Part shown: piece after piece, positions 19,185-53,478 of the stretch | Layout: each line of letters opens with the position of its first letter | Numbering within the stretch: the stretch's first letter is position 1 | Virus record (IMG/VR): IMGVR_UViG_3300017741_000005 | Location: 1 to 54,622 of that record | Reading direction: 5' to 3' (one strand) | Source: a virus | DNA length: 54,622 nucleotides | Notes under the pieces: generated by a model | Database searches by the model: none | What the model was told of the DNA's origin: nothing | Seen by the model: only the letters and a program-made list of their open reading frames with translations | Translations under genes and position numbers: made by a program

Positions 19185-20662
19185 GTCTTCCTAATACAAT
19201 CACGGTGGGATTGAAAGACCACTCAATGATGTTGGTTGATTGTGAGGCACATCAACTACCAGAGTTGCGTGAATATTTTTCATTCTATGTCCCCGGCTAT
19301 AAATTTATGCCGATGTATAAGTCTCGTAAGTGGGATGGTAAGGTGCGTCTATTCAATCAGGTCACTCGTGAATTGAACACTGGTTTGTATGAACATCTCA
19401 AGAAGTTCTGTCAAGACCGCATGTATCCTCTTCAATTACAGGAGACTGACTATGGACACCCTGCACAGAAGAATGAAGTATCGCATATCAATCTGACCAA
19501 GTTTCTGAATGGACTTGATTCTCCATTTGACTTGCGTGACTATCAGTATAACGCAGTATCGCATGGTATTCAGAATAAAAGAGCCATTCTGCTATCACCT
19601 ACAGGTTCAGGTAAATCATTCATCATCTATAATCTGTTGCGTTGGTATATCGATAACTATGATAAGAAGATATTGATTGTTGTTCCGACAACAAGTCTGG
19701 TCGAACAGATGTATAAAGACTTTTCTGATTATGGATTTGACCCTGAGTTAGTTCATAAGATTTACTCTGGTAAAGATAAGACGACAGACAAACAAATCAT
19801 TATCTCCACATGGCAGTCCATATACAAGTTCTCAAAAGAATGGTTCGAGGACTTTGGTTGTGTGTTTGGTGATGAGGTTCATTTATTCAAAGCAAAGTCT
19901 CTGTCGGGTCTGATGAATAAGTGCGTCAATGCAGAGTATCGTTTTGGCACGACAGGAACTCTGGATGGGACAGAGACAAATAAACTAGTTCTGGAGGGTT
20001 TATTTGGGCCTACATATCGTGTGACTATGACACGAGACCTTCAAGAGAAAGGCACACTCGCAAAACTTGACATCAAGATTTTGTTATTGAGATACCACAA
20101 TGATGTGTGTCATATGATGAAGAACGCAACCTATCAGGAAGAGCTTGATTATATTGTTCAGAACACTAAACGAAACAATCTGATATCAAACCTTGCGGTT
20201 GACCAAAAGGGGAATACACTTATTCTCTTTCAGTTCGTGGAGAAACATGGCAAACCATTGTATGAACTGATACGAGATAAAATAGAGGAGGGTCGTAAGG
20301 TATATTATGTGTCTGGTGAGGTTGATGCATCTGACCGAGAACAGATTCGTGGTATTGTAGAGAAACAGAAAAATGCAATCATTGTCGCATCTCTTGGAAC
20401 TTTTAGCACTGGTATTAACATTAGGAACTTACATAATATTATCTTTGCAAGCCCAAGCAAATCTCAAATCAAAGTCCTACAGAGTATCGGACGAGGACTA
20501 AGACAATCTGATGATGGTTCAACAACAAATCTAATTGATATCGCAGACGACTTACATATTAAATCACATAAAAATTTCACATTAAGACATAGTGCCGAAA
20601 GAATTAAGATATATACTAAGGAACAGTTTCCTTATAAGATATACAATATAAATCTGAAATGA
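19181..20662 (+). CDS. uvsW: DNA helicase UvsW
   Basis: 493 residues (T4 503), superfamily 2. Motif Q/I: LRDYQYNAVSHGIQNKRAILLSPTGSGKS (Walker A about 142-149). Motif II is DEVH in VFGDEVHLF, motif III-like FGTTGTLDG, and motif VI QSIGRGLRQ near the C-terminus. UvsW unwinds branched recombination intermediates and R-loops and helps switch off origin replication late in infection. The start is GTG, overlapping the membrane microprotein gene; the stop overlaps the radical SAM gene. Confidence 0.93.
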   Translation: MSLPNTITVGLKDHSMMLVDCEAHQLPELREYFSFYVPGYKFMPMYKSRKWDGKVRLFNQVTRELNTGLYEHLKKFCQDRMYPLQLQETDYGHPAQKNEVSHINLTKFLNGLDSPFDLRDYQYNAVSHGIQNKRAILLSPTGSGKSFIIYNLLRWYIDNYDKKILIVVPTTSLVEQMYKDFSDYGFDPELVHKIYSGKDKTTDKQIIISTWQSIYKFSKEWFEDFGCVFGDEVHLFKAKSLSGLMNKCVNAEYRFGTTGTLDGTETNKLVLEGLFGPTYRVTMTRDLQEKGTLAKLDIKILLLRYHNDVCHMMKNATYQEELDYIVQNTKRNNLISNLAVDQKGNTLILFQFVEKHGKPLYELIRDKIEEGRKVYYVSGEVDASDREQIRGIVEKQKNAIIVASLGTFSTGINIRNLHNIIFASPSKSQIKVLQSIGRGLRQSDDGSTTNLIDIADDLHIKSHKNFTLRHSAERIKIYTKEQFPYKIYNINLK

Positions 20663-22206
20663 CTTATCACGGCCTGATGCTAGGCAATTTCGATTCTAAT
20701 AGTATGGCGCCATATCGAGGATTTGGTAACCATAGAATTGCAACTCACCTGAGAAGACAGGGGTGGGATATCGAGTGCCTAGATTACACTGTGCATTTTT
20801 CAGACGATGAGATAAAGTGGTTTCTTGAGACTCGTATCACTAAGAATACTATCTTCATTGGACTGAGTATTATATTCTATCTTGAATTGCAGGGTGATGT
20901 TCAAAGAGTCAACAGAATTATTCATCATATCAAAACCAAGTATCCGTGGGTTCAGATTATCGCAGGTGGGGTAAAATGGTTTGCGGTGGGTCTTGTTGAT
21001 GCAGATTGGTATATTACAGGGAATGGTGAGTTTGCCATAGATGCTGTTTTAAAATATGTAACAGGAAATGGAAGTGAACCAAGACACGTTCCTGCAAGGA
21101 ATGGAAAACTTATTGATGCTGTTCATGCATATCCTTGTTTTCCAAAGAGAGATGCTAAAATCTCATTTCAAGAACGAGACTATATTCAATCACATGAGGC
21201 CTTGAATGTAGAACTCGCAAGAGGGTGTAAGTTCAAATGTAAATATTGTTCGTTTCCTTTGATTGGTCTCAAGGGAGATATGACACGAGACGAAGACAGT
21301 GTATATGATGAGTTCAAAGAAAACTATGACCGATGGGGTGTGACAAATTATTATGTGACTGATGATACCATAAATGATACCACCGAAAAGATGGAGAAGA
21401 TGTCAAGTGCTATTCGTAAACTTGATTTCAAACCATCTCTTCATGGATATGCTCGTGCTGACCTTCTCATACATCATGGTCAAAAGACTTGGGATGATAT
21501 GATTGATATGGGTCTCATATCGCATAGTTATGGTGTCGAGACTCTTAATCATCAATCAGGTAAAGAAGTTGGAAAAGGTATGAACCCCGAAAAGGTCAAA
21601 GAGGGGTTGTTAGAAGTTGAGGAGTATTTCAATAAGAATAGTGACACTTTTTACACAGGTAGTATGACTATGATTGCAGGACTTCCCTATGAGTCGTTTG
21701 AGACTCTTGATAATGGTAAGAAGTGGTTGAACAAGTATTGGAACAATCATGGAATCAAATATCTACCTCTACTGATTCATGAACCCAAAGATACGTCTCA
21801 TAGTGAGATTGACATGAGTAATGCAAATAATTTTAAGAAGTATGGGTATAAGTTTTTACATGATGTCCCACCAACGTATGACAAAGGTATGTTTGATTAC
21901 TTTGGTGAGATAAAAAAGAAGAAAGATAATACAAAAGGCCATGATGGAATATACTTTAACTTCTGGACTCATCACTCAGACGAATATGACTTTGTTGATA
22001 TGATTGAGTGGGTTCGAGACTTCAACGAGGATAGGTCTGATAATAAGATGAACTCCAACTTTTGTTTTGATATTGGATATACATCGTTAGCAAGTGAAAA
22101 CACAGAACTAAAAAATTTTTATGGTGAAGATTGCGTCCAAATAGACAAACCTGAAATTATGAATAAAATGCTTGATAAATATAAGTATGAGAAACTAAAT
22201 GGATAA
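20659..22206 (+). CDS. Radical SAM protein with cobalamin-binding-like N-domain (paralogue 1)
   Basis: 515 residues. The N-terminal 130 residues look like a Rossmann-type cobalamin-binding-like domain (RIATHLRRQGWDIECLDY and VQIIAGGVKWFAV), without an obvious DxHxxG cobalamin ligand. The radical SAM cluster motif CKFKCKYC gives Cys190, Cys194 and Cys197, followed by the GGE-region equivalent VTNYYVTDDTIND and TMIAGLPYES. It should cleave SAM reductively and act on an unknown substrate. It starts at ATGA with uvsW. A paralogue lies one gene downstream with the same layout. Confidence 0.82.
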   Translation: MTYHGLMLGNFDSNSMAPYRGFGNHRIATHLRRQGWDIECLDYTVHFSDDEIKWFLETRITKNTIFIGLSIIFYLELQGDVQRVNRIIHHIKTKYPWVQIIAGGVKWFAVGLVDADWYITGNGEFAIDAVLKYVTGNGSEPRHVPARNGKLIDAVHAYPCFPKRDAKISFQERDYIQSHEALNVELARGCKFKCKYCSFPLIGLKGDMTRDEDSVYDEFKENYDRWGVTNYYVTDDTINDTTEKMEKMSSAIRKLDFKPSLHGYARADLLIHHGQKTWDDMIDMGLISHSYGVETLNHQSGKEVGKGMNPEKVKEGLLEVEEYFNKNSDTFYTGSMTMIAGLPYESFETLDNGKKWLNKYWNNHGIKYLPLLIHEPKDTSHSEIDMSNANNFKKYGYKFLHDVPPTYDKGMFDYFGEIKKKKDNTKGHDGIYFNFWTHHSDEYDFVDMIEWVRDFNEDRSDNKMNSNFCFDIGYTSLASENTELKNFYGEDCVQIDKPEIMNKMLDKYKYEKLNG

Positions 22207-24536: not shown

Positions 24537-25124
24537 ATGAAACCACAAGATAGACCTCACTATGTAAACAACGCACAGTTCTCAACAGCTGTTGTGGAAT
24601 ACTGCACAGATTTACAACAATCAAGAGAGAAAGAAGAAACCTTACCAAAGGTCACGGATTACATTGCACAATGTTTTCTAAAGATTGCGGAAGGTCTTTC
24701 TCATAAATCCAACTTTGTTCGTTACACCTATCGAGAAGAGATGGTGATGGATGCGGTAGAGAATTGTCTCAAAGCCATCGAGAATTATAATATAGAGAAA
24801 GCAACACGCACAGGTAAACCAAATGCGTTTGCATACTTTACACAAATCTCTTGGTATGCATTTCTTCGTAGAATCGAACGAGAGAAGAAACAACAGGATA
24901 TCAAGATGAAATATATCGATGAGTCGGGTATTGAGACTTTTCTTGATAACGAGTTGGGTGATGCACAATCTGCACAGGTTGCTCAGGCCTTTATCGATAC
25001 ACTACGTTCTCGTATCGATGAAGTGAAAGAAAAGGATAATAAATGGGAGAAGGTTGTCAAGAAAGAAAGACGGCGAAGAACCATGAGAGTTGATTCTGAC
25101 CTGAGTAATTTTATCATTGACTAA
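24537..25124 (+). CDS. 55: Late-transcription sigma factor gp55
   Basis: 195 residues (T4 185). Sigma region 2-like sequence YREEMVMDAVENCLKAIENYNIEKATRTGKPNAFAYFTQISWYAFLRRIEREKKQQ is diagnostic. gp55 redirects host RNA polymerase to TATAAATA promoters; it is coupled to replication through the gp45 clamp. Several such promoters occur in this window before head, tail and tmRNA genes. The promoter leaves only about two leader bases, so the mRNA may be nearly leaderless. Confidence 0.9.
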   Translation: MKPQDRPHYVNNAQFSTAVVEYCTDLQQSREKEETLPKVTDYIAQCFLKIAEGLSHKSNFVRYTYREEMVMDAVENCLKAIENYNIEKATRTGKPNAFAYFTQISWYAFLRRIEREKKQQDIKMKYIDESGIETFLDNELGDAQSAQVAQAFIDTLRSRIDEVKEKDNKWEKVVKKERRRRTMRVDSDLSNFIID

Positions 25125-45980: not shown

Positions 45981-46054
45981 GCGGATGTAGCATAATGGTA
46001 ATGCACTGGATTTCCAATCCATTGATGAAAGTTCGATTCTTTCCATCCGCTCCA
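45981..46054 (+). tRNA. tRNA-Gly (anticodon TCC)
   Basis: Acceptor GCGGATG (45981-45987) pairs with CATCCGC (46044-46050); discriminator T, and an encoded CCA at 46052-46054. T-arm GAAAG-TTCGATT-CTTTC. The anticodon loop TTTCCAA gives TCC, reading GGA. One mismatch is seen at the base of the anticodon stem. Confidence 0.92.
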
Positions 46055-46075: not shown

Positions 46076-46300
46076 ATGGATAATTTTACAAAATCAACTC
46101 TTCTTATGTTTCTAATAATCGCTTTATTAATTGGTTATGTTTTTGGTTTTAAAATAGGAATAGACAAAGGTGCTGAAGAAGCTTCTTCACTTTGTTATGA
46201 GGAGTCTCTCGATGCAGACCTTGAATTTCTCAAGATTGAACGCATGATAGATTTATTTTTCGATAAAGCAGTAGAGTTCAAAAATGCAACGGGTGGGTAA
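46076..46300 (+). CDS. Small single-pass membrane protein
   Basis: 74 residues: MDNFTKSTLLMFLIIALLIGYVFGFKIGIDKG (membrane span about 8-26), then a soluble helical part ending with FFDKAVEFKNATGG. The ATG at 46076 is used because upstream sequence is tRNA. Function unknown. Confidence 0.65.
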   Translation: MDNFTKSTLLMFLIIALLIGYVFGFKIGIDKGAEEASSLCYEESLDADLEFLKIERMIDLFFDKAVEFKNATGG

Positions 46301-46490
46301 ATCACATAAAGCATCTGGTGCTGAAAACATGCAACAGATGAAGACTACGTTGTTCTTCAAGGCATGTAAAGAAGTTCTTGAAGAATATGGTCATGAGGAT
46401 GCGGCATTCTACTTCGAGCAAGTGGAGACACACATGCGAAGTGGTGGTAGTCTTGATGCTAACAAGGCTGGCAATATCCTTGGTGTATAA
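46284..46490 (+). CDS. Small hypothetical protein before the tmRNA
   Basis: 68 residues, basic N-terminus (MQRVGKSHKASG) then helix (FFKACKEVLEEYGHEDAAFYFEQVETHM). Not recognised. Its stop codon is inside a TATAAATA late promoter. Confidence 0.62.
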   Translation: MQRVGKSHKASGAENMQQMKTTLFFKACKEVLEEYGHEDAAFYFEQVETHMRSGGSLDANKAGNILGV

Positions 46491-46493
46491 ATA
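46486..46493 (+). promoter_or_regulatory. T4-type late promoter before the tmRNA
   Basis: An exact TATAAATA overlapping the stop of the preceding gene. The expected start near 46500 coincides with the 5' side of the permuted tmRNA gene. Confidence 0.7.
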
Positions 46494-46496
46494 AAA

Positions 46497-46745
46497 GTAT
46501 TCGTTGAAGCAAACCAAAAGGTATACTGGACGTGGGTGCAATACCCACCGCCTCCACCAAACCCCCTCTGAGGGGGCGAAATAGGTTCGACAGGTATTGA
46601 TTAGGAATGTGGAGAATAGGTGTGGAAGCGACCTTAATCGTAACAAACTCGTAAGTGCAAACGATAATTACGCACATGAAGAGTATGCGCTAGCCGCATA
46701 GTTTTCGGGGTCAGGGGACGCCTAGCAACAGAAGTCCTCACTTTT
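46497..46745 (+). ncRNA. ssrA: tmRNA, circularly permuted two-piece type
   Basis: The acceptor piece comes first: T-arm GTGGG-TGCAATA-CCCAC (46532-46548), acceptor strand CGCCTCC (46549-46555) and ACCA (46556-46559). After a 12-base spacer the coding piece starts with GGGGGCG (46572-46578), which pairs with CGCCTCC over 7 bp including the third-position G-U that identifies alanine tRNAs. Next is the conserved GGTTCGACAGG. The resume codon GCA is at 46657; the tag reads ANDNYAHEEYALAA and stops at TAG 46699-46701. A closing hairpin (46714-46719 with 46734-46739) and CTTTTT end it. No downstream T-arm exists, excluding the one-piece form. It rescues stalled ribosomes and tags products for proteolysis. 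Confidence 0.93.
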
Positions 46746-46759
46746 TATTAGGAGATACT

Positions 46760-47197
46760 ATGATTAGATTTATTACATTATTTGTGGCGTTAGCATTCAC
46801 TACGCCAGCATATGCAGAAGAAACAATTATTGAAATGTTGAATAAACGAGACGATGGCGCTCGTATGGTATATTCAGAAGATGTCACATACATTAATGCA
46901 GGCGACACAATCAAATGGTTGCCTACCGCCAAAGGCCATAATGTTGAGTTTATTGCAGGGCCAGAAGGTTATGAATTACCCAAACGTTCTAAGTTCAATA
47001 AAGAAGTCTCATTGACATTCGATGTGCCTGGCGTATATTTGTATCAATGCACACCCCATAAAAGTATGGGTATGATTGCACTTGTTGTTGTTGGTAATGA
47101 TACATCAAATTTGACACAAGTTGCGGCGACTAAAGTATTTGGTGGTAGTAAGAAGAAGTTACAAACTCTTGCCGCTGGAGTATCTTTAGGCAATTAA
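46760..47197 (+). CDS. Pseudoazurin-like blue copper protein
   Basis: 145 residues with a Sec signal peptide (MIRFITLFVALAFTTPAYA, cleavage after about 19), so it acts in the periplasm. Cupredoxin fold with all four type-1 copper ligands: H60 (AKGHNVEF), then C97, H100 and M105 (YQCTPHKSMGM), with the C+3 and C+8 spacing of pseudoazurins. Pseudoazurin passes electrons to nitrite reductase or terminal oxidases. The C-terminal 35 residues are an extra Lys/Ala tail. TTAGGAG precedes the ATG. It follows the tmRNA and may share its late transcript. Confidence 0.85.
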   Translation: MIRFITLFVALAFTTPAYAEETIIEMLNKRDDGARMVYSEDVTYINAGDTIKWLPTAKGHNVEFIAGPEGYELPKRSKFNKEVSLTFDVPGVYLYQCTPHKSMGMIALVVVGNDTSNLTQVAATKVFGGSKKKLQTLAAGVSLGN

Positions 47198-49401: not shown

Positions 49402-49537
49402 TCTCATAAATCGTTGGAGAGGGGTGTTCTTTGAACACCCTGACCCAATCGAAGAAAATATCGGAGAAGATGTAAGACCACATTGGGTTATGTCTACTCA
49501 AGATAAATATCGTTCGCAGGAAGAAGAAGAGTTCTAA
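49385..49537 (+). CDS. Small acidic hypothetical protein (short gene)
   Basis: 50 residues: MRTLFNLINRWRGVFFEHPDPIEENIGEDVRPHW, ending EEEEF. The start overlaps the DUF932 end, and the TAA overlaps the peroxiredoxin ATG. Unknown function. Confidence 0.58.
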   Translation: MRTLFNLINRWRGVFFEHPDPIEENIGEDVRPHWVMSTQDKYRSQEEEEF

Positions 49538-50073
49538 TGTTTAATCAAATACCAAATGTGACCTTCCAAACAAGAGTTCGAGACGACAGTTTGTTTGGAG
49601 ATAATCCCTTTCGATGGGAAGAAGTAACAACCGATGAACTATGGGGAAAAGGACGACACATCGTCTTTAGTTTGCCTGGCGCATACACTCCAACCTGTTC
49701 CACCTATCAACTACCAGATTATGAAAAGATGACCGCCGATGGCGAGTTTGCGAAGTTTGGTATCGATACAGTAAATTGTATTTCCGTCAATGATGCGTTT
49801 GTCATGAACTGTTGGGGACGTGACCAAGGTATCGAAAATATTCGATTGATTCCTGATGGCTCAGGCACATTTACTCGTCAGATGGGTATGCTTGTTGATA
49901 AAGATAATCTTGGTTTTGGAATGCGTTCATGGCGATATGCGATGATTATCGATAATGGTTTCATTGAAACATTCTTACCCGAAGAAGGATTTATTGACAA
50001 TTGTCCTGAAGACCCTTATGGAGAATCTAGTCCTCAGAATGTATTGGATATTTTGTCGGAGAATAATCTTTAG
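49537..50073 (+). CDS. Peroxiredoxin (Prx5-like)
   Basis: 178 residues. The active site PGAYTPTC at 47-54 has peroxidatic Cys54 with Thr51; LPDYEKM and a downstream MRSWRYAMIIDNG with the conserved Arg follow, as in the Prx5/AhpE class. It reduces peroxides and alkyl hydroperoxides using host thiols, probably protecting the infected cell. The 3' end overlaps the convergent ANL gene by 47 bp. Confidence 0.88.
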   Translation: MFNQIPNVTFQTRVRDDSLFGDNPFRWEEVTTDELWGKGRHIVFSLPGAYTPTCSTYQLPDYEKMTADGEFAKFGIDTVNCISVNDAFVMNCWGRDQGIENIRLIPDGSGTFTRQMGMLVDKDNLGFGMRSWRYAMIIDNGFIETFLPEEGFIDNCPEDPYGESSPQNVLDILSENNL

Positions 50074-51364: not shown

Positions 51365-51755
51365 GAATCTTACATCCTATAAATTCATTATAATACATAT
51401 CATTCAAAAGAACATCGTGTTCGAACTGGAGTTTGGCCTCGTAGTAAGAACACTCACCTTTGGTTTGACAAAGACGAAGTATCTCACGTTCAAATGATGC
51501 ACCCTCTTCAATAAGAGTCTGAACAGTTTCACTTGAACCACAGTAGTCTCTCCAGTTAGATTCTACTCGTGAAACTCTTTTTCTTTTTTTACCTTTAAGT
51601 GGTGGAAGTTTACGACTTGACCAAAAGAATTTTTTACCAATATATTTTTTACCATTTTTCAGATTCATCAAACAATAGACAAACCCTTGATAACTCTCTA
51701 ATAACTCATCAGTCGGAAGAAACGTCTTCCCCTGATATGACCACTCGTGTATCAT
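51342..51755 (-). CDS. GIY-YIG-like nuclease domain protein
   Basis: 137 residues. GFVYCLMNLKNGKKYIGKKFF is a GIY-YIG core (VYC and YIG strands); an Arg follows in SSRK and a likely catalytic Glu in YYEAKLQFE. WRDYCGSS and CKIHAKHIK complete the T4-like phage version. It could be a homing-type or repair nuclease. Start at ATG 51755, because the longer frame from 51785 lies fully in the preceding gene; either is possible. It overlaps both neighbours. Confidence 0.68.
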   Translation of the reverse strand: MIHEWSYQGKTFLPTDELLESYQGFVYCLMNLKNGKKYIGKKFFWSSRKLPPLKGKKRKRVSRVESNWRDYCGSSETVQTLIEEGASFEREILRLCQTKGECSYYEAKLQFEHDVLLNDMYYNEFIGCKIHAKHIKS

Positions 51756-53478
51756 TTTTTTCAATCCAGTAATATCTGTCTTCATGGTGTAACACTAGTG
51801 CATCAAGAGGTGTTCTCGCTAGCACTTTTAATGCACCTACTAGATTATTTATAATGGGTTCACCTCTACGATTAAATGACGTATTGAGAAGAACTCCATC
51901 AAACGCAGTGAGTATATCGTAGAATAATGGATTGGTATCTTGGTCTACAACGTGTAGACGAGTCGTGTTGTCTATGTGAGTGACGGCGTTTAGTTTGTTT
52001 TGATATCTTGGTTTTACCTTTGCGACATATGACATGTGTTCCATGTTATCAAGACTAGAGGACTCAAAATACTTGTTGCAATCTTCTTTGCGACAGGCAG
52101 CCGCATATGGTCTGAACCACTCTCTGAATTTTACAGTAGAATTTAGTTTTTCTTTTGCGGTTCTAATAGATGCGTCACATATGATTGACCTGTGTCCAAG
52201 AGCTCTAGGCCCGACCTCAACATCACCTTGAATCAAACCAATGACTTTACCATCACGAAGTCTCTGTCCAATCTCTTCGATAGTAACTTCAGTATCAAAG
52301 AACTTAGGACGATTGTGTAGGTCTCTGTCATTCATCGAGAATGCAGGGCCTGCAAATCTAAGGTCATAATCTGTTTTCTTGAGAAGATTTAGTCTACTCA
52401 TTTCTCGGAACATCATACCTACAGACAATCCACCATCTTCAGGATTCGGTGGAACATACACATTTATATCTGGAAATGTTTGTCTTACTTTCTCATTTGC
52501 TAGGACGTTCATTGCAGAACCACCAGTGAGAATGAGATTATTGTCATGGAGTTTGATGTCGTCTATGAAGTGTTCTTTAATAATATCAATAAGTGTTTCT
52601 TCAAAAAAGGATTGAAGTGTAGCGGCAATCATATATTGAGATGCCCCATTGATTGATACTCTTCCTCTGTTTTCAGGAAACTTTTCAAGAAAGTGTGATG
52701 CAGTATATGCTCCAAATCTCTGGTCGTCTATACCAAACACCTCTTGTGCCATGGCCCGATAACCATCACACGTTATAAGATTTTCACGATGTTTATGAAA
52801 GTCTCTATTTCTGTCAACAAGGGATTGAACATCTCTTGGTTTTGGACTAGCATATGCCGCCATTGCCATCACCTTACCAACCACACCTAAAGAATATCCA
52901 TGAGATGTGTTAGCATAAACTTCGTTTAGTGGATATGAGTTTGATTGATAGAACCCTGATATATGATATCCATAATTAGTTCCAGTTATCTGTTTCTTAT
53001 TTCTAAATGTTGCTGTGCGAAAATGTGTATCGTCTCCACCATTATCGAATGATATCACAAAAGCATTATCGAATCCAGACTGACCATATCCACACCAAGC
53101 ATGTGCGTCATGATGATGAATGGAATCACTAGATTCGTAAGCGTCATAGGTTGTTATTATTTTATCTTCAACGAAGACTTTGCCAGTAAAATCACCCAAT
53201 GCACTAGTTCTCTCGACAACATGAGGTGTATCTGAAAATAGATTGGCACTATTAAACTTTATATAAACATTACTAAATTCTTTAGAACCATAGAGGTCTA
53301 ATACACTATCTTGACAAAAAACAAAGTCTGAAGTTATCATGTTAGATTTTATGAATAATGAGTGTTTCACTCCTATGATGCGGTCAAACTCATACACAAA
53401 CATCTTATCAGTGTCAGGTTCATATATGGTTATAGACGAGTCGTGAAAACCCATGTAGTATGTAAGTATCGGTTTCAT
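51709..53478 (-). CDS. Carbamoyltransferase (NodU/CmcH/TobZ family)
   Basis: 589 residues, full length. The N-terminal YrdC/Kae1-like half has the metal site HHDAHAW at about 121-127, then FVISFDNGGDD, LILTGGSAMNVLANEKV and YVPPNPEDGGLSVG. The C-terminal half has GLIQGDVEVGPRALGHRSI and LLNTSFNRRGEPI. It transfers a carbamoyl group from carbamoyl phosphate by way of carbamoyl-AMP to a hydroxyl. Such phage enzymes have been linked, from memory, to carbamoylated hydroxymethylcytosine in DNA; sugars or small molecules are other targets. It starts 8 bp after a zinc-ribbon gene in the RNR operon. Confidence 0.93.
   Translation of the reverse strand: MKPILTYYMGFHDSSITIYEPDTDKMFVYEFDRIIGVKHSLFIKSNMITSDFVFCQDSVLDLYGSKEFSNVYIKFNSANLFSDTPHVVERTSALGDFTGKVFVEDKIITTYDAYESSDSIHHHDAHAWCGYGQSGFDNAFVISFDNGGDDTHFRTATFRNKKQITGTNYGYHISGFYQSNSYPLNEVYANTSHGYSLGVVGKVMAMAAYASPKPRDVQSLVDRNRDFHKHRENLITCDGYRAMAQEVFGIDDQRFGAYTASHFLEKFPENRGRVSINGASQYMIAATLQSFFEETLIDIIKEHFIDDIKLHDNNLILTGGSAMNVLANEKVRQTFPDINVYVPPNPEDGGLSVGMMFREMSRLNLLKKTDYDLRFAGPAFSMNDRDLHNRPKFFDTEVTIEEIGQRLRDGKVIGLIQGDVEVGPRALGHRSIICDASIRTAKEKLNSTVKFREWFRPYAAACRKEDCNKYFESSSLDNMEHMSYVAKVKPRYQNKLNAVTHIDNTTRLHVVDQDTNPLFYDILTAFDGVLLNTSFNRRGEPIINNLVGALKVLARTPLDALVLHHEDRYYWIEKNDTRVVISGEDVSSD

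Follow-up and report, generated by a model that had tools for sequence, protein, structure and literature searches.

Two-Piece tmRNAs in Phages and Bacteria

The two-piece, circularly permuted tmRNA is already known as a kind of phage-encoded RNA. Buchholz et al. (2022) identified 402 phages with tmRNAs, which comprised 133 unique structures, 53 of them two-piece, and 50 of these marine or aquatic (PMC9004378). On this point a first-pass annotation of the locus described here is outdated, since it held the one-piece form to be the one mostly known from phages.

Among the described systems is that of Melnitz, a Methylophilales phage (MZ577097; PMC9004378). Like the virus examined here, Melnitz is a T4-like marine phage with a permuted tmRNA of the alphaproteobacterial type, and TATAAATA precedes the RNA in both. 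The Melnitz tmRNA is approximately 73% identical over the aligned parts to that of the window, i.e., the whole 54,622-nucleotide stretch of DNA that was analysed. The two differ in their tags (ANDNYVPVDYALAA in Melnitz, ANDNYAHEEYALAA in the window), in the spacer between the pieces (142 nt versus 12) and in their neighbours, with a late-transcription coactivator gene located downstream of the Melnitz tmRNA. The Melnitz RNA has been described as early and as accompanied by a glutamine riboswitch, whereas the window gave no Rfam match to any riboswitch. The Pelagibacter phages Mosig and HTVC008M are likewise T4-like and carry permuted tmRNAs, with the tags GEDNFALAA and ANFNEYALAA and spacers of 44 and 49 nt, respectively, but TATAAATA does not precede the RNA in either. 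The HTVC008M gene (locus L240, 1439–1780) is present but unannotated in its GenBank record.

The bacterial counterpart is the alphaproteobacterial two-piece tmRNA (RF01849/RF04321), with which the phage gene shares the order of parts, the acceptor pairing, the T-arm, the ACCA and the -ALAA tag end. Four alphaproteobacterial genes scored 258–269 bits on RF01849, compared with 120 for the phage gene. The mycobacteriophage Bxz1 group and Bacillus phage G are listed among the phages with ssrA and so also encode a tmRNA. The tmRNAs of these phages are one-piece.

Genome Setting and Structure of the Locus

The virus record that forms the window is 54.6 kb long and has the gene content of a T4-like phage. 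Its terminase shares 73% identity with the terminase of phage C48C1, whose genome is complete (156 kb) and placed under Kyanoviridae; no paper naming the host of C48C1 was found. PHROG family matches in the window include the late sigma factor, the sliding clamp and the clamp loader. The tmRNA gene (Table 1) is preceded by a small gene whose product found no match by tblastn against named phages, and is followed by a cupredoxin gene. In two related loci, a tRNA gene lies in the latter place, directly after the tmRNA (from 3523 in L009 and from 3474 in L011). Beside the plastocyanin/azurin-family gene, other metabolic genes of the window encode a peroxiredoxin-like redoxin (49537–50073), a carbamoyltransferase (51709–53478) and a radical SAM protein (20659–22206).

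Table 1. Features of the tmRNA locus and the late sigma factor gene (window coordinates).
Feature	Position	Strand	Evidence or remark
gp55-type (T4) late sigma factor, required for use of the late promoter	24537–25124	+	phrog_234, E 2.7e-51
tRNA-Gly (TCC), 0.5 kb upstream of the tmRNA	45981–46054	+	ARAGORN, Rfam
Small protein, function not assigned, directly upstream of the tmRNA	46284–46490		
T4-type late-promoter octamer TATAAATA, 5 nt before the RNA	46486–46493	+	Predicted start ~46499
Acceptor piece (3′ half of the tRNA-like domain)	46499–46559	+	First base of the RF04321 match at 46499; covarying helices with the coding piece
T-arm, 5-bp stem and 7-nt loop, GTGGG-TGCAATA-CCCAC	46532–46548	+	Stem 5/5 paired in relatives
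Acceptor 3′ strand CGCCTCC (46549–46555) and encoded ACCA (46556–46559)	46549–46559	+	
Intervening sequence AACCCCCTCTGA, 12 nt, removal expected	46560–46571	+	
Acceptor 5′ strand GGGGGCG with G3-U70	46572–46578	+	7/7 acceptor pairs formed, G-U at pair 3
Coding piece of the two-piece tmRNA	46572–46742	+	RF01849 match ends at 46742
Frame encoding the tag ANDNYAHEEYALAA, from resume codon GCA to stop codon TAG	46657–46701	+	ARAGORN; similar tags in relatives
Plastocyanin/azurin-family protein (cupredoxin), directly downstream of the tmRNA	46760–47197	+	PF00127, E 5.9e-15; phrog_515

A complete alphaproteobacterial-type permuted tmRNA occupies positions 46499–46742, as located by Rfam models and ARAGORN; the span first proposed, 46497–46745, was marginally wider. 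The match to RF04321 (tmRNA_permuted) reached 121.3 bits (E 3.2e-23; 46499–46701), above the gathering score of 47, and that to RF01849 (alpha_tmRNA) reached 120.1 bits (E 3e-32; 46449–46742), above the threshold of 50. ARAGORN called a permuted tmRNA with the tag ANDNYAHEEYALAA. The 3′ half of the acceptor lies upstream of the 5′ half with the intervening sequence between them, the alanine identity pair G3-U70 is accompanied by a CCA end, the tag frame has a resume codon, a stop and a proteolytic tail, and the helices that join the pieces covary. All that the first-pass annotation had read from the letters holds, namely the T-arm, CGCCTCC-ACCA, the 12-nt gap, GGGGGCG, the G-U at pair 3 and the tag with GCA and TAG. 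Its view of the gene as phage-encoded, permuted, two-piece and complete is backed by ARAGORN and the Rfam models, by the T-stem pairing and by the covariation between the pieces.

Conservation among Relatives

Related viral loci (n = 40) were fetched through the gene upstream of the window tmRNA. A tmRNA stands behind this same gene in L003–L005 and L009–L018 (cut off at the contig end in L010), and approximately 1.3 kb further on in L019–L021. In L006–L008 and L022–L042, no tmRNA was found in the stretch searched next to the upstream gene, though one is present elsewhere in three of these contigs. Behind the shared upstream gene, the tmRNA and an intact tag are retained even as the contigs diverge, and the tags of the relatives resemble ANDNYAHEEYALAA and end in -ALAA or -RLAA.

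Among the viral pattern matches listed, which had not been selected for pairing, 89 of 89 distinct sequences have a complete T-stem (5/5 pairs), and positions 1 and 2 of the stem each display four compensatory pair types. The helices between the pieces were not fixed by the search pattern. In the 34-sequence phage subclade around the window, several of their pairs have changed in both partners (U-A, C-G or A-U at one, for example, and A-U or U-A at another), and acceptor pair 3 is U-G in all 34. Such covariation speaks for a two-piece fold that is in use. Two of the related loci (L012 and L013) have 28 extra nucleotides, perhaps an additional hairpin, in the coding piece ahead of the tag; the insertion is absent from the window and from L011.

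The intact stems bear on the view that the gene has no function, being either a relic or a piece of host DNA captured recently, for instance from an attachment site. Host ssrA genes do serve as integration sites (PMC9004378), and the complete relative C48C1 has no tmRNA gene, so the tmRNA is dispensable in the group. However, the stems are all intact and covarying, both pieces are complete and the promoter is conserved. Nor was a close bacterial match found, the best among 289 alphaproteobacterial genomes being 81% over 70 nt only, on which grounds recent capture from a host was rejected. This origin is accordingly the least credible of those considered, with hardly any weight left to it.

It has also been suggested, for the tRNA-like-only tmRNA of phage DS6A, that such an RNA acts as a decoy which binds host SmpB and blocks host trans-translation. 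DS6A indicates that inhibitory tmRNA-like RNAs can occur in phages, and no smpB was found (PF01668) in any of 13 related phage records, which exclude the window, are mostly fragments, and include the complete C48C1 and four of 116–153 kb. A decoy, on the other hand, would not need the tag frame, resume codon, stop and -ALAA/-RLAA ends that are kept across the diverging relatives, and it is very unlikely to be the role of this RNA. Those 13 records give no sign of a self-sufficient trans-translation system with a phage-encoded SmpB, and host SmpB is therefore probably needed by the phage tmRNA. The earlier proposal that the phage "replaces or supplements" host rescue gains nothing here for replacement over supplementation.

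Origin and Distribution

Of the 220 sequences placed in a tree, 93 are viral, and 90 of these group together with only two of the 127 bacterial ones (L264 and L256). The support is 0.78, and the tree is to be read with its short alignment (approximately 180 nt), its weak deep support, a sample partly drawn by patterns that resemble the phage gene, and a true host that may be unsampled. Within the tree set, virus and bacterium come no closer than 73% identity in any pair, and no bacterial sequence exceeds 62% identity to the window. A search of a 30-genome order, probably SAR11 (genomes of 1.2–1.5 Mb), returned no close bacterial tmRNA. The tree and the identities fit a long residence in phages, as opposed to a recent copy of a host gene. 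The tag frame is unusually long, ANDNALSNVTFVDFSAPVTAVNEDFALAA, in three viral permuted tmRNAs that lie outside the viral group (L068, L073 and L159). The acceptor pattern CCTCCACCA-N5-35-GGGGGCGAAATAGG matches at least 120 stretches in IMG/VR.

Late Promoter and Timing of Expression

The spacing between T4 late promoters and their start sites is established, and it places the predicted start of the window tmRNA at the first base of the RF04321 match. The octamer TATAAATA occurs eight times in the window compared with 2.66 expected, a number that no shuffle reached, and several copies closely precede genes of late type, among them the tail sheath gene and one resembling a tail-tube gene. The assignment as a T4-type late promoter is made on sequence and sigma factor, i.e., the octamer before the predicted start and a gp55 encoded in the same window.

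What is new here is that the late-promoter octamer recurs at a near-fixed place before viral tmRNAs. It was found at −55 to −30 of the T-arm in 46 of 95 distinct viral permuted tmRNAs (per-sequence shuffle expectation 0.4), a raw count that is inflated by relatedness; the 95 were required to be fully paired and were used only for promoter counts, spacers and tags. Most copies are at −46 to −49, and a further group sits at −38. When the viral sequences are clustered at 80% identity, 20 of 28 clusters have a positive member, and parsimony on the tree requires 11 changes for octamer presence. The octamer is kept in L020 and L165 although the upstream sequence differs there. About half of the viral sequences are without an exact copy. 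Unlike the window, no bacterial sequence has the late octamer upstream (0/71 permuted tmRNAs, and 0/127 in a second, overlapping alphaproteobacterial set).

The conserved late promoter suggests use late in infection. The first-pass annotation had guessed as much from TATAAATA next to the gene, and that guess is strengthened by the near-fixed recurrence in viruses, the absence in bacteria and the gp55 of the window, the timing itself being read from the promoter.

The published proposal is the opposite one. Buchholz et al. proposed that the Melnitz tmRNA acts early, since an early promoter precedes it (PMC9004378), with host proteins being tagged for breakdown and their amino acids recycled. 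The sequence of the octamer is also similar to that of a sigma-70 −10 box. One spacer length (approximately 16–17 nt) upstream of it, both Melnitz and L165 have a TTGACA, and the two elements together make a sigma-70-like site; TGTGGTATAAT is found in several viral upstream regions as well. In the window, however, no sigma-70-like site was found between 45900 and the RNA, and the exact octamer at its near-fixed place in 20 of the 28 viral clusters argues against early expression. The Melnitz octamer itself starts at locus position 1514, inside a tmRNA gene annotated from 1498. According to their methods, Buchholz et al. dropped promoters that were neither intergenic nor within a 10-bp overlap of gene ends (PMC9004378), and the octamer would thus not have been counted; this filter is presumably why it was missed. 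Because of the TTGACA, early or dual control is possible in Melnitz and L165. For the window, early expression appears unlikely, if clearly less so than a decoy.

A related observation concerns annotation. ARAGORN-based coordinates can put the 5′ end of permuted tmRNAs approximately 30 nt too far upstream (46465 in the window; 1498–1950 in the Melnitz locus, L238), so that the promoter falls inside the annotated gene and is hidden.

Proposed Role in Infection

The evidence points with fairly good confidence to a functional, long phage-resident tmRNA that is expressed late and uses host SmpB and RNase P. Late in infection, host RNA polymerase, directed by gp55 and helped by the phage sliding clamp, would start at ~46499 from TATAAATA and produce a permuted precursor. 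By analogy with known two-piece tmRNAs, RNase P and other host tRNA-processing enzymes would cut at ~46559 and 46572 and release the 12-nt spacer. The two pieces would be held together by the acceptor stem and the inter-piece helices, as the covariation supports. As in other members of the family, the RNA would be alanylated through its G3-U70 signature, bind host SmpB and enter stalled ribosomes. The addition of ANDNYAHEEYALAA would then free the ribosome and mark the peptide for host proteases. The likely benefit is a continued supply of free ribosomes at a time when stalling is increased by RNA decay and by massive translation late in infection.

The locus confirms that a complete RNA for ribosome rescue, degradation tag included, is carried by T4-like phages, and the conserved late promoter suggests when this RNA would act. 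A broader proposal, for which the chances seem about even, is that marine T4-like phages keep a tmRNA lineage of their own in the form of a late-promoter cassette, with trans-translation as a dedicated late function, contrary to the published early proposal. Whether the RNA serves early, against host proteins, or late, to keep ribosomes free, becomes testable in an existing laboratory pair, phage Melnitz and OM43 strain H5P1.

The Intervening Sequence

The 12-nt length of the spacer, as first noted, is correct, but its shortness is nothing special. Viral spacers range from 8 to 142 nt, bacterial ones begin at 3 nt, and bacterial spacers of 3–12 nt are common, so a very short spacer was rejected as a special feature. 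One prediction that weighs against the proposed role concerns the unprocessed precursor, in which the spacer (CCCCCUCUGA; 46560–46578 region) would pair with the GGGGG in the 5′ strand of the acceptor. The predicted pair probability reaches 0.96 for this pairing versus approximately 0.02 for the acceptor stem, by nearest-neighbour folding that ignores tertiary contacts. The same competition is predicted in L012 and, more weakly and with G-U pairs, in L020, and is absent for other short viral spacers. Such pairing may slow the processing of the precursor.
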